Shown: positions 51,419-63,635 of the stretch, in pieces | How positions within the stretch are numbered: position 1 is the first letter of the stretch | Layout: every line of letters begins with the position of its first letter | Source of the DNA: Rhodococcus phenolicus | Lineage (GTDB): Bacteria; Actinomycetota; Actinomycetes; Mycobacteriales; Mycobacteriaceae | Direction: 5' to 3' | DNA: 64,000 nucleotides | Assembly (NCBI RefSeq): GCF_001646785.1 | Contig: NZ_LRRH01000008.1 | Coordinates: 186,001-250,000 of the forward strand | Program-made: the position numbers and the translations under genes | Notes under the pieces: generated by a model | What the model saw: only the letters and a program-made list of their open reading frames with translations | Told to the model about the DNA's origin: nothing | The model's database searches: none

Positions 51419-52732
51419 TCACACGCACTCCGAGGCACCGGCGGGCTCCGCCGCGAGTCCCGGACGGGTCTCCGGCGAGGGGCTCCACAGGCCGTCGCTC
51501 TTGGCGTAGGTCCACGAGGGGCCGTGCTCGACGAGGCGCCGCACCGCACCGACGAGACGCTCGACGTCGGCGGACGAGCTTCCCAGTCCGAGGGAGGCGC
51601 GCACCGCGCCACCGGCACGACCGACGCGGGCGAGCAACGGGTGCGCGCAGAACCGCCCGTCGCGCACGCCGATTCCGTGTTCGGCCGACAGGTACGCCGC
51701 GATCTCCGCGGGTTCGTAACCCGCGACCGTGAAGGTGACGATGCCGACGGAGTCGCACGAGTCTTCCCACAGACGAAGCAGTTCGACCCCGTCGATTCCG
51801 CGCAGACCCTCGACCAGCAGCCCGTTCAGTTCGTCCTCGTGGCGCGCGACAGCGTCGGCGTCGAAACCGGCGAGGGCTTCGCAGGCCGCCGCGATCGCCG
51901 CGGCTCCGAGCACGTTCGGCGAGCCGGCCTCGTGACGCGCAGGGGCGCAGGCCCATTCGGTGTGATCGAGGCGGACCTCGCGCACCGCGCCACCACCGGC
52001 CAGATAGGGCTCGGCCACGTCGAGCCAGTCGCGGCGGCCCACGAGGACGCCGGCGCCGAACGGCGCATACGTCTTGTGGCCGGAGAACGCGAGGTAGTCG
52101 ACACCCGTTGCGGCGAGGTCGATGCGGCGGTGCGGCACGAGCTGCGCGCCGTCGACGAGAATGCGCGCACCGCACTCGTGGGCGAGGCCGGCCAGTTCCT
52201 CGATGGGGAGCAGCTCACCGGTGACGTTCGAGGCGCCCGTGATCGCGAGCAGCGCGGCCGGCGCCCGGCGCAGTTCCGCGGCGAGTCGCTCGATCGTCCC
52301 GGCAACGGTGTCGGCAGCTTCGACGATGCGGGAGTTCTTCCACGGCAGCAGGTTCGCGTGATGCTCGATGTCCAGGAGGACGACATCACCGGGCACCGCG
52401 GTCGCGAGCAGATTCAGCGAATCGGTGGTGTTGCGGGTGAACACGACGACCTGGTCGTCGGCGGCTCCGACGAATCCGGAGACCACGGACCGGCACCGCT
52501 CGTAGGCGTCGGTGGTGACCCGCGAGGCGTAGCCGGCGCCACGGTGCACGCTGGCGTAGAAGGGCAGCAGTTCGGCGATGCGGTCGGTGACGGTGGACAG
52601 GGCCGGGGCACTCGCGGCGTAGTCGAAGTTCGCGTAGGTGCAGGTGCCGCCCTGGACGAGCGGAACCTGCAGATCACAGCCGGAAACGCGGGCGATGGGG
52701 GCGATGCAGGTGGCGGTCGTTGCAGCAGTCAT
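51419..52732 (-). CDS. PLP-dependent aminotransferase class V (cysteine desulfurase-like)
   Basis: The 437-residue fold type I PLP enzyme has ANFDYAASAPALSTVTDRI at the N terminus, EHHANLLPW with a PLP-contacting His, LVDGAQLVPHRRIDL and the Schiff-base Lys in LAFSGHKTYAPFG. It ends RVGRAGGAVRASLGLG. It is closest to SufS/CsdA-like desulfurases and related lyases. No Cys-containing desulfurase loop is obvious from reading. A SAM-IV-like riboswitch in the 5' leader suggests a part in methionine/cysteine or SAM-linked sulfur metabolism. The exact reaction is not known. Confidence 0.86.
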   Translation of the reverse strand: MTAATTATCIAPIARVSGCDLQVPLVQGGTCTYANFDYAASAPALSTVTDRIAELLPFYASVHRGAGYASRVTTDAYERCRSVVSGFVGAADDQVVVFTRNTTDSLNLLATAVPGDVVLLDIEHHANLLPWKNSRIVEAADTVAGTIERLAAELRRAPAALLAITGASNVTGELLPIEELAGLAHECGARILVDGAQLVPHRRIDLAATGVDYLAFSGHKTYAPFGAGVLVGRRDWLDVAEPYLAGGGAVREVRLDHTEWACAPARHEAGSPNVLGAAAIAAACEALAGFDADAVARHEDELNGLLVEGLRGIDGVELLRLWEDSCDSVGIVTFTVAGYEPAEIAAYLSAEHGIGVRDGRFCAHPLLARVGRAGGAVRASLGLGSSSADVERLVGAVRRLVEHGPSWTYAKSDGLWSPSPETRPGLAAEPAGASECV

Positions 52733-53109: not shown

Positions 53110-56100
53110 TTGTCTGTCCAGCCCACGACGGATCCGGGTCGGCCGGCTCGAATACCGGACGAATACCTGCGTTCGTCGTTCGCCCCCGCCGCGCGCACCC
53201 TCGTCGACATCCTGCGCAGCACCGCCGACGCACACCCCGACGCCCCCGCGATCGACGACGGCAGGGTCACCCTCAGCTACGCGGAACTGGCCGAGGAGAT
53301 CGTGGCCGGCGCCTACCGGCTCACCGATGCCGGTGTAGGCGCCGGTGACCGGGTGGGGGTGCGCATGCCCTCCGGCACGAAGGACCTGTACGTCACGATC
53401 CTGTCGGTGCTCGCCGCAGGCGCGGCATACGTCCCCGTGGACGCGGACGACCCGGACGAACGAGCCGAGCTGGTGTTCGGGGAGGCGCGCGTCACCGCGA
53501 TCGTCACCGAGGAGGGGATCGGCCCTGGCACCGCGCCGGCATCGACCGATCCTCGGGTACGCGGCCCCAAGCTCCACGACGACGCCTGGATCATCTTCAC
53601 GTCCGGGTCCACGGGCACCCCGAAGGGCGTCGCGGTGACCCATCGGAACGCGGCCGCGTTCGTCGATGCCGAAGCGCGGATATTCCTGCAGGGCAATCCG
53701 ATCGGACCGGGCGATCGCGTGCTGGCCGGTCTCTCGGTGGCGTTCGACGCCTCCTGCGAGGAGATGTGGCTGGCGTGGCGGCACGGGGCGTGCCTGGTCC
53801 CCGCTCCCCGATCGCTGGTGCGTTCCGGCATGGATCTGGGTCCGTGGCTGGTCTCGCGCGACATCACCGTCGTCTCCACTGTCCCGACTCTCGCGGCGAT
53901 GTGGCCCGCCGAGGCACTCGAGGCGGTGCGCCTGCTCATCTTCGGTGGCGAGGCCTGTCCCCCGGACCTCGCCGAACGGCTCGCGGTACCGGGACGCGAA
54001 GTGTGGAACACGTACGGCCCCACCGAAGCGACGGTGGTGGCGTGCGCCGCCCCGATGGACGGCACCGGGCCCATCCGCATCGGCCTGCCCCTCGACGGCT
54101 GGGACCTCGCGGTCGTCGACGCCGACGGAATGCCCGTCACCGAGGGCGCGATCGGCGAACTCGTCATCGGTGGGGTCGGTCTCGCGCGCTACCTCGACCC
54201 TGTCAAGGACGCCGAGAAGTACGCGCCGATGCCGACCCTCGGCTGGGAGCGCGCCTACCGCAGCGGCGACCTGGTGACGCTCGACCGTCGCGGCCTCTTG
54301 TTCCAGGGGCGCGCCGACGACCAGGTCAAGATCGGCGGGCGGCGCATCGAACTCGGCGAGATCGACAACGCGCTGCAGAACCTGCCGGGCGTCGCGGGCG
54401 GTGCATGCGCCGTCCGCAAGACCGCGGCCGGGCATTCGATCCTCGTCGGCTACATCGCCAGCACCGACCCGGACTTCGACGTCGCCTCGGCCCGCGACCT
54501 GCTCACCGAGCAGCTTCCCGCCGCGATGGTCCCACGGCTCGCGCTCGTCGACGAACTCCCGACCCGCACATCCGGAAAGGTCGACCGGGCCGCGTTGCCG
54601 TGGCCGCTGCCCGGCACCGACGCGGACTCCGCCGAAGCACTCGGGCTCGACCCCACCGCCGAATGGGTGGCGGGCCTGTGGATGTCGCTGCTCGGCGCCC
54701 GCGTCGAGGGTCTCGACGACGATTTCTTCGAACTCGGCGGCGGCTCGTTGTCGGCCGCCCAGCTGGTGACCGCCCTGCGCGAACGCTACCCGGAGATGAC
54801 CGTCGCGGAACTGTACGACCATCCGCGACTGGGTTCGCTCGCCCTGTATCTCGACGAGCTCGCCCCGACCGAAACCGTCGCGCCCCGCCGGGTCGAGCCG
54901 ATGCCGCGGTCGTCGCAGCTGGTGCAGATCGCCGCGACCGTCCCGCTCGCCACGCTGACCGGCATGCAATGGGTGACCTGGCTGGCGGTGCTGAACAACG
55001 TGCTCGCGGCCGTCGTCTCGGTGCCGTGGACCGTCACGCTGTCGTGGTGGTGGGTCGCACTCGGCGTGCTGCTGTTCATCACGCCCCTCGGCCGCATGAC
55101 CATCGCGGTCGCGGGTGCGCGGATCCTGCTGCGCGGAGTGCGGCCCGGCACGTATCGCCGCGGGGGCTCCGTGCATCTGCGGTTGTGGACGTCGCTGCGG
55201 CTCGTCGAGGCGAGCGGGGCGGCCAACCTGTCCGGTGCGCCGTGGATGCTGTACTACGCCCGCGCGCTGGGGGCGAAGATCGGCCGCGGTGTCGATCTGC
55301 ACAGCCTGCCGCCGGTGACCGGCATGCTCGAACTCGGCGACGGCTGCTCGATCGAACCCGAGGTCGATCTGTCCGGTCACTGGGTGGACGGCGACGTGGT
55401 GCACATCGGCACGATCCGGATCGGGGCGGGCGCGTCGGTCGGTGCCCGTTCGACCCTCAATCCGGGATGCAAGATCGGCAAGAACGCTGTGGTCGAAGCT
55501 GGTTCCGCGGTGTTCGGGCGCGTCAAGGCCGGGCAGCAGTGGGCCGGTTCACCGGCCGTGAAGGTGGGCCGCGCCGCACGGCCGTGGCCCGTGGAACCAC
55601 CGAGCCGTGCGTCGGCGTGGGTGCCGGTGTTCGGTGCGAGTTCGGTGGTGATCGCGGGACTGCCGCTCGTCTCGATCGGCGCGGGTGTCGCCTTGATCGG
55701 ATGGTGGGTCAGCGGCACCGCCACCCTCCCCGGCGCCGTACTCCGATCCCTGATGATGCTGCCCGCTGCGGGACTGCTCACGATGTTCGTGTTCGCGCTG
55801 CTCACGGTCGCGTCGGTGCGGTTGCTGTCGATCGGCATGACCGAGGGCTGGCATCCGGTGCGCAGCCGTGTCGGCTGGCAGGTGTGGGCCACCGAACGGC
55901 TCATGGACTCGTCGCGCACATTCCTGTTCCCGCTGTACGCCTCGATGCTCACGCCGATCTGGCTGCGTCTGCTCGGCGCCGACATCGGCAAGGACGTCGA
56001 GGCGTCGACCGTGCTGATGGTCCCCAAGTTCACGAAGGTCGCCGACGGTGCGTTCCTCGCCGACGACACCATGGTCGCGTCCTACGAACTCGGTGGGGGC

Positions 56101-57018
56101 TGGCTGTTCATCTCGCACGCGAAGGTCGGCAAGCGTGCATTCCTCGGCAACTCCGGCATGGCCGCGCCGGGACGCCGGGTGCCGAAACACGGTCTGGTCG
56201 CGGTGTTGTCCGCGGCGCCGACGAAGGCCAAGTCCGGTTCGTCGTGGCTCGGCAGCCCGCCGGTCCGCCTGCGCCGCGCCGCCGGAGACGCCGACTCGAG
56301 TCGCACGTTCGCTCCCCCGCTGAAACTGAAGGTCGCGCGAGGATTCGTCGAAACGTTCCGGCTCGTCCCGATGATGGTGACGTTCGGGATCGGCCTCGGC
56401 GTGCTGTTCGCGTTGAACGCGCTCGCGGCCGTGGGCGGATACCCGCTCGCGCTGGTGCTCGGCGGTGTCGTCCTCATGCTCGCCGGCGCATTCGCGTGCA
56501 TCGTCACCGTGGCCGCGAAATGGCTGGTCGTCGGCCGGATCGGTCGTGTGGAGCATCCGCTGTGGAGTTCGTTCGTGTGGCGGAACGAAGTGTCCGACAC
56601 GTTCGTCGAGATGGTCGCCGCGCCGTGGTTCGCGCGCCCCGCGACCGGAACCGCCGTGATGAATCTGTGGCTGCGCGCGCTCGGCGCTCGCATCGGTCGC
56701 GGTGTGTGGTGCGAAAGCTACTGGCTGCCGGAAGCGGATCTCGTGACGCTCGAGGACGGCGCGACAGTGGAACGGGGGTGTGTGGTGCAGACACATCTGT
56801 TCCATGATCGGATCATGTCCATGGACACCGTGATCCTCGAGAACGGAGCCACCCTCGGCCCGCAGTGCGTGGCGCTGCCGGCGTCTGGCATCGGCGCCGG
56901 AGCGACCGTCGGCCCGGCCTCCCTCGTCATGCGCGGCGACGTCGTCCCCGCATCGACCCGCTGGCAGGGCAATCCCATCGCCCCGTGGACCACACCCGGC
57001 GATTGGTCACCCCGGTGA
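53110..57018 (+). CDS. Pls/PosA-family membrane nonribosomal peptide synthetase
   Basis: The 1302-residue protein has an adenylation domain: A3 FTSGSTGTPKGVAVTH near 160, A5 NTYGPTEATVVA near 300, A7 YRSGDL near 382, A8 GRADDQVKIGGRRIELGE near 400, A10 TSGKVDRAAL near 488. A thiolation domain (FFELGGGSLSAAQ, Ser near 545) follows. Then come about six membrane spans in three pairs (611-676, 838-913, 1081-1140), each followed by a left-handed beta-helix/hexapeptide-like domain (for example GRGVDLHSLPPVTG). This is the layout of epsilon-poly-lysine synthetase (Pls) and PosA, which make isopeptide homopolymers without condensation domains. The substrate amino acid cannot be read reliably. The start is TTG with GAGAAGG upstream. 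Confidence 0.88.
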   Translation: MSVQPTTDPGRPARIPDEYLRSSFAPAARTLVDILRSTADAHPDAPAIDDGRVTLSYAELAEEIVAGAYRLTDAGVGAGDRVGVRMPSGTKDLYVTILSVLAAGAAYVPVDADDPDERAELVFGEARVTAIVTEEGIGPGTAPASTDPRVRGPKLHDDAWIIFTSGSTGTPKGVAVTHRNAAAFVDAEARIFLQGNPIGPGDRVLAGLSVAFDASCEEMWLAWRHGACLVPAPRSLVRSGMDLGPWLVSRDITVVSTVPTLAAMWPAEALEAVRLLIFGGEACPPDLAERLAVPGREVWNTYGPTEATVVACAAPMDGTGPIRIGLPLDGWDLAVVDADGMPVTEGAIGELVIGGVGLARYLDPVKDAEKYAPMPTLGWERAYRSGDLVTLDRRGLLFQGRADDQVKIGGRRIELGEIDNALQNLPGVAGGACAVRKTAAGHSILVGYIASTDPDFDVASARDLLTEQLPAAMVPRLALVDELPTRTSGKVDRAALPWPLPGTDADSAEALGLDPTAEWVAGLWMSLLGARVEGLDDDFFELGGGSLSAAQLVTALRERYPEMTVAELYDHPRLGSLALYLDELAPTETVAPRRVEPMPRSSQLVQIAATVPLATLTGMQWVTWLAVLNNVLAAVVSVPWTVTLSWWWVALGVLLFITPLGRMTIAVAGARILLRGVRPGTYRRGGSVHLRLWTSLRLVEASGAANLSGAPWMLYYARALGAKIGRGVDLHSLPPVTGMLELGDGCSIEPEVDLSGHWVDGDVVHIGTIRIGAGASVGARSTLNPGCKIGKNAVVEAGSAVFGRVKAGQQWAGSPAVKVGRAARPWPVEPPSRASAWVPVFGASSVVIAGLPLVSIGAGVALIGWWVSGTATLPGAVLRSLMMLPAAGLLTMFVFALLTVASVRLLSIGMTEGWHPVRSRVGWQVWATERLMDSSRTFLFPLYASMLTPIWLRLLGADIGKDVEASTVLMVPKFTKVADGAFLADDTMVASYELGGGWLFISHAKVGKRAFLGNSGMAAPGRRVPKHGLVAVLSAAPTKAKSGSSWLGSPPVRLRRAAGDADSSRTFAPPLKLKVARGFVETFRLVPMMVTFGIGLGVLFALNALAAVGGYPLALVLGGVVLMLAGAFACIVTVAAKWLVVGRIGRVEHPLWSSFVWRNEVSDTFVEMVAAPWFARPATGTAVMNLWLRALGARIGRGVWCESYWLPEADLVTLEDGATVERGCVVQTHLFHDRIMSMDTVILENGATLGPQCVALPASGIGAGATVGPASLVMRGDVVPASTRWQGNPIAPWTTPGDWSPR

Positions 57019-58358
57019 AGCCCGTCAAGGCCAAGCCGGTCGCGCCCGTGGGAACGGACCGCCCGCTCGACCCCTATCTGCCGACGAGCGGCAATCGCGG
57101 GTATCGCGTGTCCCGATACGAGCTGGAACTGACGTACAAGGTCGCCTCGAACCGGCTCGCCGGGCGCGCCACGATCATCGCCACCACGACCGACGTCCGC
57201 GGCAAGTACGCACTCGATCTCGTCGACACGATGCGGGTGTCGAAGGTCTCGGTCAACGGCGCCCGGCCCGCGAAATACACGCACCGCGACGGCAAGCTCA
57301 CTGTCACGCCGGCGCAGAAGATCCCGGCGGGTGCGGTACTGACGGTCACCGTGCAGTACGCGGGAACACCGTCGCCGCGGCACTCGGTGTGGGGTGACGT
57401 CGGCTGGGAGGAACTGGAGGAAGGCTCGCTCGTCGCGAGCCAGCCGAACGGCGCACCCTCGTGGTTCCCGTGCGACGACCACCCCGGCTCGAAGGCCACA
57501 TATCGGATCACGCTGACCACGGATTCGCCGTTCCACGCCGTCGCCAACGGCACCCTCCTGAAGAAGACCACGAAGGCGAGCCAGACCACCTGGGTGTACG
57601 AACAACCCGAACCGATGGCGACGTACCTGGCGACCGTTCAGATCGGCCAGTACGAGGCCCGCACGGTGTCGCCGGCCCCGGTTCCGATCGTCGCGGTGCA
57701 TCCGCCGCGGTTGCGCGAGTCGTTCGACGTGGACTTCGCGCGCCAACCGCAGATGATGGAGGTCTTCGGGCGCCTGTTCGGCCCGTACCCGTTCGCGCAC
57801 TACACCGCCCTCGTCACCGACGACGATCTCGAGATTCCCATCGAGGCCCAGGGACTGTCGATCTTCGGCGCCAATCATTGCGACGGACGCCGGCGCGAGG
57901 AACGACTCGTCGCACACGAACTCGCCCACCAGTGGTTCGGCAACAGCCTGACTCTCGAACGCTGGCGCGACATCTGGCTGCACGAGGGCTTCGCGTGTTA
58001 CGCGGAGTGGTTGTGGGCGGAGAATTCGGGTGGGCGGTCGGCGCACGTCCTCGCGGCCGAGGCACACCGCGGTCTGGCCCGCAAACCCCAGGACATCGTG
58101 CTGGGCGATCCGGGTCCGAAGGACATGTTCGACGATCGGATCTACAAGCGCGGCGCGCTCACCCTGCACGCCCTGCGTCGGCATCTGGGTGACGACCGGT
58201 TCTTCACCCTGCTCCGCACCTGGACCGCGGAGCATCGGCACTCGAACGTGACGACCGAGCAGTTCACCGGTCTCGCAGCGCGTTTCACCGATACTTCGCT
58301 GCGTCCGCTGTGGGACGCCTGGCTGCACGAGCCTGCCTTGCCGGCGCTTCCCCACTGA
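57015..58358 (+). CDS. M1-family zinc aminopeptidase (short form)
   Basis: The 447-residue protein has the gluzincin site HELAHQWFGNSLTLERWRDI followed by WLHEGFA, giving HExxH and the distal Glu (about residues 303-326). The usual GxMEN exopeptidase motif is replaced by IPIEAQG, as in other short actinobacterial M1 enzymes. There is no signal peptide, so it is cytoplasmic. The GTG overlaps the stop of the Pls-like gene (GTGA), so the two are translated together. Degradation of the synthetase's polymer, as known for epsilon-poly-lysine-degrading aminopeptidases, is a plausible inference. Confidence 0.88.
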   Translation: MKPVKAKPVAPVGTDRPLDPYLPTSGNRGYRVSRYELELTYKVASNRLAGRATIIATTTDVRGKYALDLVDTMRVSKVSVNGARPAKYTHRDGKLTVTPAQKIPAGAVLTVTVQYAGTPSPRHSVWGDVGWEELEEGSLVASQPNGAPSWFPCDDHPGSKATYRITLTTDSPFHAVANGTLLKKTTKASQTTWVYEQPEPMATYLATVQIGQYEARTVSPAPVPIVAVHPPRLRESFDVDFARQPQMMEVFGRLFGPYPFAHYTALVTDDDLEIPIEAQGLSIFGANHCDGRRREERLVAHELAHQWFGNSLTLERWRDIWLHEGFACYAEWLWAENSGGRSAHVLAAEAHRGLARKPQDIVLGDPGPKDMFDDRIYKRGALTLHALRRHLGDDRFFTLLRTWTAEHRHSNVTTEQFTGLAARFTDTSLRPLWDAWLHEPALPALPH

Positions 58359-58379: not shown

Positions 58380-59039
58380 CTATGGCAACGTGACGTCGGA
58401 GGCCAGCCAGCGGCCGTCGACGAGTTCCATCGTCATCACGACCCGGCTGCGGTCGAGGCGCGGTTCGGGCGAGACGGTGTTGGTGACGGTCTGATCGACG
58501 AACAGCAGCACCTCGACCTTCGACGGTGTTGCGGATTTGACGCCGGCCTCGATCACGACGCCTTCGGCGGTTGCCTGGTTGTCGACCAGCAACTGACGGA
58601 GCTGCTCGCTCGACTGCGCATACATGTCCTTGAACTCCCCGGTTGCGCCGTCGAGCACGGCGTCGAAGTTCGCGTCCAGGTCGTCCGAGCTGACGCTCGT
58701 GAGCACCACCGCGTACCGGCGCGCCGCGTCGAGGGCGGCAGCCGATGCGTCGTCGACCGCATTCGCCTCGTGCAGCTTCCAGCCGAGGATGCCGGACAGC
58801 GCAAGCGCCAGGACCGCGACCAGGACGGCGGCGAGAAGGCCGATACGCCGGCGCCCGCCCGCGAGCAGCCCGCCACCGCGACCACCGGAACGCCCGGGAC
58901 CGTCCGGGCCGGAATCGGTTCCGTTGCTCGCAACATCCTCGCTCGCACCGCCTTCGACCACGACATCGTCGTTCGCGGTCTCGGCGTCGGGGATCTTACG
59001 GTCGACGACCGCGATGGCCGTCCGGCTGTTCTTGCTCAC
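58380..59039 (-). CDS. Mce-associated membrane protein
   Basis: The 219-residue protein has an acidic, Gly-rich cytoplasmic N terminus, one transmembrane helix (about residues 67-88, IGLLAAVLVAVLALALSGIL) and an extracytoplasmic domain of the Mam type (AALDAARRYAVVLTSVSSDDLDANFDAVLDG, VVMTMELVDGRWLASDVTLP). Such proteins are encoded after mceF and help assemble or stabilise the lipid importer. The GTG start has GAGAAGGAGA upstream. It converges on the M1 peptidase gene with a 21-bp gap. Confidence 0.88.
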   Translation of the reverse strand: MSKNSRTAIAVVDRKIPDAETANDDVVVEGGASEDVASNGTDSGPDGPGRSGGRGGGLLAGGRRRIGLLAAVLVAVLALALSGILGWKLHEANAVDDASAAALDAARRYAVVLTSVSSDDLDANFDAVLDGATGEFKDMYAQSSEQLRQLLVDNQATAEGVVIEAGVKSATPSKVEVLLFVDQTVTNTVSPEPRLDRSRVVMTMELVDGRWLASDVTLP

Positions 59040-59095
59040 GTCGGTTCTCCTTCTCGTTGTCGGGCCGGGTCGCTGCGTCGGCAGCCGGGATCGGT

Positions 59096-61489
59096 TCAGC
59101 GCACCCCCGGATCGCCGGGATCGGGTCCGCCGGGTTCGAGCGGAAGGGACAGCGGACCGATCGGCGTCGGATCCGTCTGCGCCAGTGGATCGACGCCCGG
59201 CGGAGGTGTGTACCCGCCTTCTTCCCCGGCCGGCCGCGGCGCATTGCGCGCCCCACGCACCAGGGTCGACGGATCGGGGTTCGGACAGTAGGTGTGCAGG
59301 AACGGTTCCGGGAAGTTCGACAAGGCAGGTGACTGCCTGGGCAGGTCGTAGTCGCACGAGTACCGCGGATAGATGTTGACGAACGCCCAGATACCGCCGT
59401 CGCGGAATGTCGTCGCCAATGCGTCGAGCGTCGACCCGCCGCGAGTGGCCGGGAAGAAGAACTCATGGAGGGCAGGCACCCGGAGATACGCCATCTGCGC
59501 GGTCGTGGCGAGGTTGCCCAGCAACTGCACCATCGTCGGCGAGTTGTCCGCGAACAGTGTGTCGACGGACTGCAGGGTCGCCGGTGCACCGTCGACGAAT
59601 TGCCGGAATCCCGCGTCCTTCGACTCGACACCCTCGAGCACGGTCGACAGGTTCCGGGAGGTCGCGGCCAGGCCGGCAGCACTGTCCGAGAGGGTGCCGA
59701 GCACGATCCTGCTGGTGTTCAGCACGCTGACGGTCTGCGGCAGTACCGAATCGAGCGTGGAGATCAGGAACGTTCCGCCGTCGACGATGTCGGTCAGCTT
59801 GCCCGGCCCTTCCGCGCTCATGCCGAGTTCGTCGACGATGGTTCGGACCGTCTCCGGGTCGATCTGCGCGAGCATCCCGTCCAGATCACCCATCAGCGCG
59901 GACAGCGGAACCGGGGTCGACGTCTCGTCGGCGGAGATCTCCGCACCGTCGGTGAGAAAAGGCCCTGTGTCGGAGTCGGGACGGAAGTCCAGGTACTGCT
60001 CCCCCGCGAGCGACAACCCGGCGACACGCACTTCGCCGCCGGCAGGGATCTGCGTCGACGAGTCGATCGCCGCGACCGCGACCACGCCGTCGTCGGTCAG
60101 TTCCACCGATGTCACGCGGCCGACCGGGACGCCGCGCAAGGTGACGTTGCGGTCGGGGAGCAGTCCTCCCGATTCCGCGAGATTCACGCGGACGTGGATC
60201 TTCCGGTCGGTCGGATCCAGATGGAACACGCCGAAGACCAGGTAGGTGACGCCGAGCACCAAGGTGAGCGCGAGCGCGGTCACCGACAGAGCCAGTCGAT
60301 GCGCCGACGCGTAGCGAACCCCCGAAACCAATACCCGCGCAGGAGCTTCGATCACTCCCTTCTGCTTCCGGCCGACCGTCACTGCGGCACCCCCCCCGAA
60401 CTTGCTCTGCAGCCGCAGCATCGTGTACGTCAGGGTCCCCACGAACGCAGCCCAGTCCGTACCGTCGGGCAGCCTGCTGCCCGGATCGCCGCCGTGCCCC
60501 GGAACCGGCAGCGCCCCGAGCGCCAGCTGCTGGAGGTCGGCGTCGGTGTGCGCGGAGGTACCGCTGGTGATGTTGATGACCGGCGCCATGATCCGGTTGA
60601 CGTTCTCGAGGGAGACCCCCGGCAGCGTCGCCGCTCTGTTGAGTTCGGCTGCGACACGATTGATGTCGGCGATCATGCTGCGGGTGTCGGTTCCCTGGAC
60701 CGACGGGAATTTCGCAATCTGTTCGGTGATCGAAGCGACCTGCGACACCAGATCGACCACCTGTGTGGTGCTCTCGGACAGCACGCCGAGCGCGGGACCG
60801 GCCGCGACGACCGCATCGCTGATCGTCGAACGCTGATCCGAGAGGGTCGCGACGAGCCCGTTCGTCTGCTCGAGCGATCGCCGGATCTCCTCGGACCGTG
60901 AGTTCAGGTCGCCGACGAGCCGGGTCGATTCGTTCATCAGCTCCGCGATGCGGTCTCCCTTACCGTCGACCGCGGCCCCCAGGCCGTTGACGAGTTTCGT
61001 CAGGTTCCGGACGACACCGCCGTTGACGAGAAGCGACGACGTCGCGAGAAGCTCCTCGACGGTCGCTGCGGCCGAGGTGGATTCGAGCGGAATGCTGTCT
61101 CCTTCACCGAGGGTGGCCGCATCGGGCGGTGGATCCGCCGGTGGCTGCAGAGAGACGAAGACGTCGCCGAGCGGCGTCGCGGACCGAAGCTCCGCGGTCG
61201 TGCCCTCGAGCACCACCACGCCGTTCATGATGCGCAACGCGACGACCGCCGTGTAGTTCTCCACGCGCATCGAGTCGACCTCACCGACATCGGCACCCGC
61301 GAGCTTCACCTTTGCCTTGGTCGGCAGGTTCAAGGCGTTCTCGAACGTCGCGCCGATGACGTACGAGTCGCCACCGACCCCGGGCGCCGGAAGCGGCAGA
61401 TCCTCGAGTCCGACCGAGCACGCCGCGGTCGACATCGCCACGAGGAGAGACGTTCCGGCGGTCACGAGCCGCCGCGCTGTGCGCGTCAT
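59096..61489 (-). CDS. MceE-MceF read as one ORF (apparent fusion)
   Basis: The 797-residue ORF is two Mce proteins end to end. Residues 1 to about 369 are MceE, a lipoprotein (lipobox STAAC, Cys24) with one MCE domain (YVIGATFENALNLPTKAKV). From about 370 (VTVGRKQKGVIEAPARVL) it is MceF with its own transmembrane helix (about 395-420) and MCE domain (IHVRVNLAESGGLLPDRNV). A run of eight G lies at the junction. With seven, MceE would stop at a TGA overlapping the MceF GTG. Mce complexes import lipids such as sterols or fatty acids across the envelope. The fusion may be a frameshift. Confidence 0.82.
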   Translation of the reverse strand: MTRTARRLVTAGTSLLVAMSTAACSVGLEDLPLPAPGVGGDSYVIGATFENALNLPTKAKVKLAGADVGEVDSMRVENYTAVVALRIMNGVVVLEGTTAELRSATPLGDVFVSLQPPADPPPDAATLGEGDSIPLESTSAAATVEELLATSSLLVNGGVVRNLTKLVNGLGAAVDGKGDRIAELMNESTRLVGDLNSRSEEIRRSLEQTNGLVATLSDQRSTISDAVVAAGPALGVLSESTTQVVDLVSQVASITEQIAKFPSVQGTDTRSMIADINRVAAELNRAATLPGVSLENVNRIMAPVINITSGTSAHTDADLQQLALGALPVPGHGGDPGSRLPDGTDWAAFVGTLTYTMLRLQSKFGGGAAVTVGRKQKGVIEAPARVLVSGVRYASAHRLALSVTALALTLVLGVTYLVFGVFHLDPTDRKIHVRVNLAESGGLLPDRNVTLRGVPVGRVTSVELTDDGVVAVAAIDSSTQIPAGGEVRVAGLSLAGEQYLDFRPDSDTGPFLTDGAEISADETSTPVPLSALMGDLDGMLAQIDPETVRTIVDELGMSAEGPGKLTDIVDGGTFLISTLDSVLPQTVSVLNTSRIVLGTLSDSAAGLAATSRNLSTVLEGVESKDAGFRQFVDGAPATLQSVDTLFADNSPTMVQLLGNLATTAQMAYLRVPALHEFFFPATRGGSTLDALATTFRDGGIWAFVNIYPRYSCDYDLPRQSPALSNFPEPFLHTYCPNPDPSTLVRGARNAPRPAGEEGGYTPPPGVDPLAQTDPTPIGPLSLPLEPGGPDPGDPGVR
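60390..60397. repeat. Homopolymer of eight C (G8 on the coding strand) at the mceE/mceF junction
   Basis: Eight consecutive C on the plus strand sit 8 bp upstream (coding sense) of the MceF-type GTG at 60382. Changing the length by one restores separate mceE and mceF with a GTGA overlap like those of the other mce genes. Confidence 0.85.
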
Positions 61490-62592
61490 CGCGGCAGCCC
61501 CGCGAGTCCCTCGAGCATGCCCGGGATACCGAAATCGGGCCCGAAGTCACGCAATGTCCCGGTCGCGCAACCCAGGTGCTTCAGTCCCATCCGGTTGCAG
61601 ACCTCCTTGACCAGCTGGCCGTCGAAGAACACCTTCTCGAGCTGCGCGTGCACGCGGGCTCCCCCGTTCTCCTGGTCGATCGCGTTGTACGCGTTCTCCA
61701 TCAGCAGCGGTGTCACGTCGAGGAACTCGGCGAGCTGGTCACGGTAGTCCGCGAGCGAGCGCGTCACGGTCTCCGAATTCGCGAGAGTGGACCTCAGTGC
61801 ATCCCGGTTGTCCGTCAGCAGCGAGTTCGCCTGGAGCAGGATGTCGTTGATCTTCGTGCCGGTGTCGCCGGTCCCGAGGTTCGCGTCGGCGAGGATCTCG
61901 CTCATCTGCCGGGTGGCTTCACCGAACTCGCGGATGTCGCTGTCGTTGGCTGCGGCCGCGCTCGTCAGGACCGCGAGATCGTCGACGATCCTGGTGATCT
62001 CGTTGGCGGTCCCCGCGCCCCCGTCGTCGCTCAGGCGCAGCGCGTCGGACAGCATGGACAAGGCGGATCTCATCGCATCACCATTGCCGTCGGTGGCCGC
62101 TGCGCCGGCCGCCAGGATGTCCGCGACGGGACCGCCCCCGGTTCCGTCGCCCTGGAGCTCGATCGACAGGTTGTCCGCCATCGCCAGCAACCGGTCGAAC
62201 TCCACCGGTGTCTTCGTGCGGTCCAAACCGAGAACCGCATCCGGCGCGAGCTTGTCGCCGCCGCTGTACACCGGCGTCAGCTCCACGTGGCGATCCGTCA
62301 GCACGGATGTCGAGACCGCCACCGCCTGTGCGTCGGCGGGAAGGTCGATTCCGCTGTCGACCTCCATCGTCACCTCGACGTACAGTCCCTTCGGTTCGAT
62401 CCGCGTGATCTTTCCGACCGGAATCCCGAGGACCGCCACGGTATTTCCCTCGTACAGGCCGGCGCCGTTGTCGAACTGGGCGGTGATCGTGTGCGGTTCG
62501 TCGCTGCCGAGGAGTGCGCGGAACCCGAAGAATCCGGCGGCCAGCACGACGAGTACGACCACACCGGCGGTGACGGTCCGACGCGAGATCAT
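61486..62592 (-). CDS. mceD: MceD, mammalian-cell-entry family protein
   Basis: The 368-residue protein has an N-terminal membrane anchor (TVTAGVVVLVVLAAGFFGF), one MCE domain (HTITAQFDNGAGLYEGNTVAVLGIPVG, about 34-110) and a helical C-terminal part with a conserved two-cysteine region (VCNRMGLKHLGCATG). It forms part of the hexameric periplasmic substrate channel with the other Mce subunits. Start and stop overlap its neighbours by 4 bp. Which mce locus (mce1-4 type) this is cannot be decided without mceA and flanking genes. Confidence 0.87.
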   Translation of the reverse strand: MISRRTVTAGVVVLVVLAAGFFGFRALLGSDEPHTITAQFDNGAGLYEGNTVAVLGIPVGKITRIEPKGLYVEVTMEVDSGIDLPADAQAVAVSTSVLTDRHVELTPVYSGGDKLAPDAVLGLDRTKTPVEFDRLLAMADNLSIELQGDGTGGGPVADILAAGAAATDGNGDAMRSALSMLSDALRLSDDGGAGTANEITRIVDDLAVLTSAAAANDSDIREFGEATRQMSEILADANLGTGDTGTKINDILLQANSLLTDNRDALRSTLANSETVTRSLADYRDQLAEFLDVTPLLMENAYNAIDQENGGARVHAQLEKVFFDGQLVKEVCNRMGLKHLGCATGTLRDFGPDFGIPGMLEGLAGLPR

Positions 62593-63635
62593 TCGCACTC
62601 CTGGAAGTAGGCCGGCATGTCCAGCTCCACGGCACGGCCGCTGAGCGCGCACATCCACGAGTCGATCATCGGACCGGCAGGCGCAGAGAAGTCCACCTCG
62701 TTGGCGGTGCCGCTGGCGTTCGTGAAGTTCCGCAGGGCGACGGGCAGGATCTGGAGTGTGTTGCGCAGCAGGTCGTCGTGGTTGCCGAGGCTCTGCAGCA
62801 GTTCGTTCAGGCTCGCGATCAGCTGTTCCACCTCGGGCCGGTCCTCGACCACGACGGTGTGGAGCTCGGACACGAGCTCGGTGGTGGCCGTGAGCAGCCC
62901 GTCGATCATCTCGCGCCGGGACGTGATCTCCTTCAACATGTCCCGGCCGTTGCGGACCAGTTCACCGAGGCTCTGCTGCTGGTCCCGAACGATGCCGGTC
63001 ATCTCGCCGGTGGCCTTCAACAGCGACCCCACCTGGTCGCGTCGTTCCGCCAGCACCGACGACAGGTTCTCGATGTTTGCGAGCGCCTGCGGCATCAGCG
63101 GGGGAAGGTCGTGGAGTTCTCCGGCGAGCGTCGTGAGGGTGTCGCCGAGTTCGCGGGCGTCGACCTGTTCGAAAGTCGTGGTCGCGTCGGCCAGGACGTC
63201 CATGAGGTCGTACGGGACCTCCGTGTTGGACAGCGGGATCCGGTTGTCCGGAAGCTCGCCCTCGCCTGCCGGCCGCAGTTCGATGTAGCGGGCGCCGAGC
63301 AGTGTCGTCAGTTTGATCGAGGCGCGGGTGTCGGGGCCGAGCGGGACACCGTTGTCGATCTTCATCGACACGACCACGTGATCGCCCTCGAGCCGTGCTC
63401 CGCCGACCGAACCGACCTGGACACCGGCGATCGTGATTCCGTCGCCGGGCGCGATCTGCGCCGCCTGGGCGAATTCCGCCTCGTACTCGTGTTTTCCGAT
63501 CCCGGCCGAGCTGATCAACAGGGTCGCCGCGAGAGCAACGACGATGGCGAGGACGGTGATCGTGCCGAGGGTCAGCGGTCTGTACTCCTCGATCGGCCGG
63601 AACCTGCCGCCGCGGCCGGTACGTTCGATGGTCAC
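62589..63635 (-). CDS. mceC: MceC, mammalian-cell-entry family protein
   Basis: The 348-residue protein has a short basic N terminus, a membrane anchor near residues 20-42 (LGTITVLAIVVALAATLLIS), an MCE domain (YEAEFAQAAQIAPGDGITIAGVQVG) and a long helical region. It ends with a Cys-containing tail (WMCALSGRAVELDMPAYFQ). The GTG (VTIERTGRG) lies 7 bp after the mceB stop; the longer frame overlapping mceB is rejected. It assembles with MceA-F. Confidence 0.88.
   Translation of the reverse strand: MTIERTGRGGRFRPIEEYRPLTLGTITVLAIVVALAATLLISSAGIGKHEYEAEFAQAAQIAPGDGITIAGVQVGSVGGARLEGDHVVVSMKIDNGVPLGPDTRASIKLTTLLGARYIELRPAGEGELPDNRIPLSNTEVPYDLMDVLADATTTFEQVDARELGDTLTTLAGELHDLPPLMPQALANIENLSSVLAERRDQVGSLLKATGEMTGIVRDQQQSLGELVRNGRDMLKEITSRREMIDGLLTATTELVSELHTVVVEDRPEVEQLIASLNELLQSLGNHDDLLRNTLQILPVALRNFTNASGTANEVDFSAPAGPMIDSWMCALSGRAVELDMPAYFQECE

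Follow-up and report, generated by a model that had tools for sequence, protein, structure and literature searches.

Epsilon-poly-lysine is an antimicrobial polymer used as an industrial preservative, and the enzyme that produces it is usually discussed for Streptomyces. In Streptomyces albulus, the peptidase gene pldII adjoins the synthetase gene pls with a 4-bp overlap, and the two form one operon (PMC4361855) that has been called translationally coupled (PMC9223678; here and below, the cited papers are drawn on for part of their text). An upward shift in chain length has been reported in the same species (PMC9223678), and PldII activity was assigned to the cell surface, outside the membrane (PMC9205021). 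We analyzed a 64,000-nt stretch of Rhodococcus phenolicus contig NZ_LRRH01000008.1 (the window), in which a pls homologue (53110..57018, forward strand) is followed by an M1 zinc peptidase gene (57015..58358, forward strand). The pair is a pls operon, a known type that has been described for Rhodococcus before; what is new here is the class split in the peptidase leader, as read from sequence, and the retention of the two genes together across the family. We consider it likely that this is a two-gene operon of the epsilon-poly-L-lysine type in which a leaderless M1 peptidase clears internally released polymer in the cytoplasm.

Related systems have been described outside Streptomyces. The pls-peptidase operon of Corynebacterium variabile has the same architecture, with pls adjoining a peptidase gene (Jiang et al. 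2021, PMC8117764), and its pls homologue made epsilon-poly-lysine in Streptomyces coelicolor when placed under an S. albulus promoter (PMC8117764). Coryneform pockets were described as 'identical or highly similar' to those of confirmed Pls enzymes, and Rhodococcus was among the genera with matches; the part of that paper covered does not discuss export or localization of the coryneform peptidase (PMC8117764). Epsilon-poly-lysine-type (NAPAA) clusters appear in antiSMASH-based papers on Rhodococcus (PMC10819586, PMC11475406, PMC8396431) and in 218 Nocardia genomes (PMC12153302). PosA, the delta-poly-L-ornithine synthetase of Acinetobacter baumannii, has the same adenylation (A) domain, thiolation (T) domain and membrane-bound terminal region, resembling a nonribosomal peptide synthetase (NRPS); unlike the window pair, it is encoded by a single gene without a cotranscribed partner (PMC10522769). 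The window pair shares with S. albulus pls-pldII the A-T-tandem synthetase, the substrate pocket, the downstream peptidase gene and the 4-bp overlap; however, its synthetase belongs to a separate clade, with an A domain 66% identical, and the feature that sets this clade apart is a peptidase with no recognizable export leader.

The synthetase (1302 aa, TTG start) scored 739 bits against the NCBIfam model TIGR02353 'Pls/PosA family' (cut-off, 423) and 326 bits against TIGR01733, and its best PDB match was 7wew (655 bits). The A domain (53194..54597; PF00501, TIGR01733) and the T, or peptidyl carrier, domain (54661..54852; GGGS motif, PF00550 at 48 bits, residues 535-598) are followed by the TIGR02353 terminal region, and profile searches found no condensation or thioesterase domain, as in Pls. 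An AlphaFold2 model, PDB matches and profile self-comparison resolved this region into three tandem soluble acetyltransferase-like domains split by six transmembrane helices, again the arrangement of Pls; hydropathy by itself misses the first helix. The three left-handed beta-helix domains are C1 (55108..55614; Pfam Hexapep, with a profile match to C2 and C3), C2 (55828..56364; hhalign to C1, 98.6%) and C3 (56542..57000; hhalign to C1, 98.7%; PDB matches over model residues 540-698), each visible in the model and the latter two also matched in the PDB. The first-pass annotation, which had noted A and T domains, three membrane-linked domains and no condensation domain, was thereby confirmed. 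A structure search with the model listed 50 matches, filled by single beta-helix domains, and none of these was Pls-like over its full length. Within C3, H1229 (QTHLFHDR) is invariant in all 145 aligned family members, distant paralogues included. By analogy with hexapeptide acyltransferases, H1229 may be a residue that catalyzes formation of the isopeptide bond.

The pocket residues of the A domain (D213, A214, E217, S256, I277, G279, T301, V309, V310 and K490) read DAESIGTVVK, the lysine-type pocket of Pls, and are identical in our alignment to those of the 7WEW chain, whose PDB title is epsilon-poly-L-lysine synthase and which we take to be the S. albulus enzyme. The same ten residues were found in 143 of the 145 readable rows of a 146-row alignment that includes 7WEW and both synthetase classes described below (one locus, L239, gave no pocket), and in 104 rows of an earlier 106-row set, which had 2 exceptions; most rows were picked by similarity to Pls, so that this uniformity is partly a matter of selection. 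The two exceptions are paralogues (L068, G092:C19; L069, G034:C1) that read DFEYLGTVTK, with the PDAP/PDAB-like Phe at position 2, and no M1 match was found within the stretch fetched around either. Extra TIGR02353 synthetases occur in 9 of 151 family genomes, as 10 copies scoring 547-573 bits. Position 2 has been proposed as the determinant of chain length, being Ala in Pls, Met in PosA (DMEHNGTVSK) and Phe in the PDAP and PDAB synthetases (PMC10522769). The window synthetase has Ala, neither Met nor Phe, at this position and differs from PosA at 4 of the 10 positions, and a PosA-type product was rejected on this difference.

Because the pocket is identical to that of 7WEW, epsilon-poly-L-lysine is the expected product. 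We regard it as very probably the polymer made, and L-lysine is strongly predicted as the monomer. The first-pass annotation had called the synthetase 'Pls/PosA-type' and had left its product in this lineage open. The Pls half of that label holds and the PosA half does not; the comparison of specificity residues that it had proposed places the pocket inside the Pls type; and the open product gives way to the prediction of lysine, epsilon-poly-lysine-type clusters having already been reported in Rhodococcus (PMC8117764, PMC10819586).

Two classes of synthetase were distinguished. Among 343 genomes of the Streptomyces-like genus of genome G531, 150 had a Pls-type A domain; 21 A domains with 73-93% identity to 7WEW make up class I, whereas the remaining full-length domains among those listed (approximately 65-70%) belong to class II, and five Streptomyces-like genomes hold one of each. 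In a tree of 81 synthetases, built by a quick method with Shimodaira-Hasegawa-like approximate likelihood ratio (SH-aLRT) support and restricted to Pls rows longer than 900 aa (which kept 19 of the 21 class I members), support was 100 for class I (19 rows) and 99 for the class II set (57 rows). The class II set contains the window synthetase together with mycobacterial, nocardial, micrococcal, Corynebacterium-like (genus g3) and Streptomyces-like class II members; the g3 genomes thus share a clade with the window. The class I M1 genes also separate in the M1 tree (19 rows, support 100). For the peptidase comparisons, the window and 80 named loci (the best 80 of 582, assigned to class II by similarity) gave 81 loci, four of which (L079, L132, L140 and L151) yielded no pair since the stretch ends less than 1.4 kb past the synthetase. 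The 21 class I loci gave 19 pairs, with no M1 match at L227 and L230. The 22 Streptomyces-like class II pairs are 20 matches from the genus survey and two from a class survey; five of the 20 come from double-class genomes and the others are mostly best-ranked, a non-random choice. At L227 (G760:C1), the class I synthetase is followed by a leader-like start (MTRCGRC...) with no M1 match in the fetched stretch, and the same genome also holds a class II pair (L235).

The M1 protein of the window (447 aa; PF17900 and PF01433 domains) starts at a GTG that overlaps the synthetase stop codon by 4 bp (GTGA, 57015..57018), in agreement with the initial reading, and this overlap putatively couples translation of the peptidase to that of the synthetase. 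Among the 77 pairs from the window and named loci, the M1 start lies at -4 in 47 and at -1 in 16; the remaining starts lie elsewhere, five of them (of the 77) 297-2106 nt downstream. The zinc site HELAH...E (HEXXH-18-E; 57915..57986) and the catalytic Tyr are intact, as expected of an M1 enzyme. GXMEN is the exopeptidase motif of M1 zinc aminopeptidases; at its place the window protein reads P-I-E-A-Q, and so departs from the motif, with the Glu alone kept (98 of 99 rows). The nearest solved relatives, 6a8z (E 1.4e-47) and 6iff (E 1e-46), are entered as zinc metalloprotease and have chains of 474 residues, close in length to the window M1; presumably all three lack the large domain found at the C-terminus of classical M1 enzymes, and we know of no link between either structure and a synthetase, no search having been aimed at one. 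The class I gene at the pldII position (that is, next to an A domain 73-93% identical to 7WEW) is an M1 homologue that scores 350-407 bits against the window M1 domain, a comparison made with these genes and not with the PldII sequence itself. The suspicion that PldII is unrelated to the window M1, raised by a two-zinc homology model (PMC9223678), was rejected on this homology. One class I genome has another M1 homologue, not linked to the pair, whose start resembles a signal peptide (L183, G531:C3, 1509-2966); as a guess, it could be the older exo-type enzyme Pld.

The two classes differ in the start of the peptidase. Class I M1 proteins carry a twin-arginine (Tat)-like leader, for example MTRCSRRALLRGAALLPLAAT, in 19 of 19 pairs, with the Arg-Arg motif in all 19, and most of these genes have the same overlap. 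By comparison, a leader was found in 0 of 22 Streptomyces-like class II pairs, 0 of 8 other class II pairs and 1 of the 77 pairs from the window and named loci. The single positive (L100) has its putative start 297 nt past the synthetase stop, a 126-aa 'leader' and many later starts, and is probably a wrong start. No hydrophobic leader was detected in the window M1 or in the 50 in-frame codons upstream of it (maximum Kyte-Doolittle value over 11 residues, -0.58). In each of the four genomes in which both classes were read, a Tat-like leader is present on the class I M1 and absent from the class II M1. In one further genome (G053; L064, G053:C2, 2578-7824), synthetase and M1 lie in one frame of 1748 aa; with the M1 domain at the C-terminus of the synthetase and six helices before it, the peptidase would be expected to face the cytoplasm, provided that the fusion did not arise by accident in the assembly. 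A similar fusion in its congener G024 was rejected, as that genome has two ORFs and G053 alone is fused. We found no description of this class difference in export in the literature, searched in open-licence papers.

The class difference in leaders agrees with the reported activity of PldII at the surface, and it predicts a cytoplasmic location for the window peptidase, which appears to stay inside the cell. The analogy with the polymer-degrading peptidases of known producers, drawn in the first-pass annotation, therefore applies to the pair but not to the exported PldII type. From the domain layout, lysine pocket, gene overlap, co-retention and joint absence, intact zinc site and missing leader, we infer the product, cleavage of the polymer by the M1 enzyme, its cytoplasmic site and a role in self-protection. 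In this scheme, the A domain would activate L-lysine and the T domain would carry the loaded lysine; the membrane-embedded tandem beta-helix domains would link lysines via the epsilon-amino group and pass the chain outward. The second gene would be translated from the same message by stop-start coupling, and its product would remain in the cytoplasm beside the synthetase and hydrolyze chains released inside. Such cleavage would protect the cell from its own polycation and return lysine. The most likely purpose is the clearing of polymer released on the inner face of the membrane.

An arrangement like that of S. albulus, in which the polymer is an exported antimicrobial and a PldII-like enzyme on the exterior protects the cell surface and recycles polymer outside, would account for the same gene order, the 4-bp overlap and the homology of both synthetase and M1. 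It is nevertheless improbable, given that PldII activity was reported at the cell surface (PMC9205021) and that the leader present in all class I pairs is missing from the window M1.

The two genes are retained together across a wide range of genomes. In all 18 genomes of the genus sample, they share a contig and a strand. The family sample (n=151) contained the synthetase in 137 genomes, M1 in 138, both in 137, M1 alone in 1 and neither in 13 (Fisher p 7e-18, ignoring kinship among genomes). In an enlarged sample (n=261) that largely contains the first, the synthetase was found in 237 genomes, M1 in 237, both in 236 and neither in 23; the family and class counts rest on a few best-scored candidates per genome. 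The only synthetase without M1 was in G916, a draft that is 87% complete, and the only M1 without synthetase was in G043. Nineteen of the 23 'neither' genomes are listed by handle in both tables, the other 4 being assigned by elimination of unlisted handles, and the 19 fall in genera g3, g4, g5, g12, g14 and g29. The simplest account is repeated joint loss of synthetase and M1, which also took place in g3, where the genes lie apart. Genes that are apart yet both retained are found in Corynebacterium-like g3 genomes and some g9 genomes; in three g3 genomes (L052, L054 and L056), M1 is encoded at another genomic location. These unlinked genes were rejected as counter-evidence, as the two co-occur in g3 and are also absent together there.

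In a class sample of 394 genomes, a Pls-type A domain (E 1e-110) was present in 95, in 89 of which an M1 gene immediately follows in the same orientation, and all 91 M1 matches of at least 370 bits sit in synthetase genomes. Four synthetase genomes have no M1 match at that level (G377, G179, G520 and G531); in G531, the adjacent class I M1 scores 356 bits. The survey of linkage proposed at the outset thus gave adjacency in most cases and retention of both genes in the unlinked ones; neither this survey nor the pocket comparison refuted the first-pass reading. The suggested pairing of synthesis and turnover is supported by linkage and co-occurrence, with cutting of the polymer by M1 as the inferred part. 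In G043, where no TIGR02353 match was found at E 1e-20, the orphan M1 ORF (L062, G043:C6, 4245-5564) reads RQLAQ in place of HELAH and has Asp, Gly and Ala at the positions of the zinc Glu, the catalytic Tyr and the substrate-motif Glu, respectively; HEXXH is kept in the other 80 rows of the alignment. Although an anecdote, this loss points in the right direction, suggesting that an intact active site is retained in genomes that have polymer to cut.

Retention of the genes together in 236 of the 238 family genomes that have either, unlinked cases included, would also suit a reserve polymer, in which lysine is stored in an intracellular or envelope polymer and mobilized by M1. A cytoplasmic peptidase fits mobilization as well as protection, and the polymer was undetected in cultures of C. 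variabile or Corynebacterium glutamicum (PMC8117764). The membrane architecture and the published excretion in Streptomyces favor export, and we consider storage unlikely.

Several observations weigh against internal clearance of epsilon-poly-L-lysine by a cytoplasmic M1. Other routes to the envelope are available to a leaderless protein. The leader cut-off of 1.45 was set post hoc, in the gap that separates the lowest class I value (1.51) from the highest class II value (1.42, excluding L100). The fusion occurs in one genome and may be an indel or accident, the congener G024 (L063) having two overlapping ORFs, and the inactive orphan M1 is likewise a single case (G043) that may be an accident. 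Nor is a synthetase always accompanied by M1: G377 and G179 gave no M1 match beside theirs and G520 gave a weak one (E 7.5e-47); the synthetases of these three genomes sit on long tree branches. Under the conditions used by its authors, one study detected no polymer from C. variabile itself, nor any from C. glutamicum expressing the C. variabile synthetase, although proteomics confirmed that the protein was present (PMC8117764). Since neither species gave polymer, production in Rhodococcus is uncertain.

A polymer of another diamino acid (beta-lysine, ornithine or diaminobutyrate) is very unlikely. Adenylation codes can mislead, and the family includes epsilon-poly-beta-lysine and delta-poly-ornithine synthetases (PMC10522769); however, the window pocket is that of 7WEW and of nearly all readable rows, those of PosA and the Phe-bearing PDAP/PDAB type differ, and the profiled neighbors (a SufS-like desulfurase, a family-less ORF and mce-type genes) include no aminomutase. 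That M1 is a housekeeping aminopeptidase merely lying beside the synthetase is hardly credible: M1 enzymes are common, homologues of approximately 40% identity occur in many synthetase-free genomes, and some M1 match (E 1e-30) is found in 192 of the 394 class genomes against 95 with a synthetase, but of the 24 family genomes without a synthetase, 23 lack the linked subfamily and the remaining one has an inactive copy.

The presence of a TIGR02353 synthetase in 237 of 261 family genomes makes polymer synthesis and turnover look like a near-core trait. We tentatively propose two Pls designs: S. albulus would export its cutter, and the wider class II would bind a dedicated intracellular peptidase to the synthetase by coupled translation, in one case by fusion, so that a near-core isopeptide polymer would be cleared or quality-controlled inside the cell. 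As part of this proposal, class II would extend over Rhodococcus, Nocardia, Mycobacterium, probably Corynebacterium, and other actinomycetes. The contrast of exported with non-exported peptidases, read side by side in four double-class genomes, offers a direct test of protection outside or inside the cell.

The host of the window is a soil Rhodococcus whose nearest named relative is Rhodococcus zopfii (synthetase 95% identical). Family profiling identified a divergent SufS-like cysteine desulfurase gene upstream of the pair (51419-52732, reverse strand) and, convergent with it, an ORF without family and mce-type genes (58380-62658, reverse strand). Large NRPS genes abound in the genome (contigs C85, C216, C31, C86, C217 and C4), with open frames of up to 6967 aa, and the synthetase query gave 67 matches in total, mostly adenylation domains.

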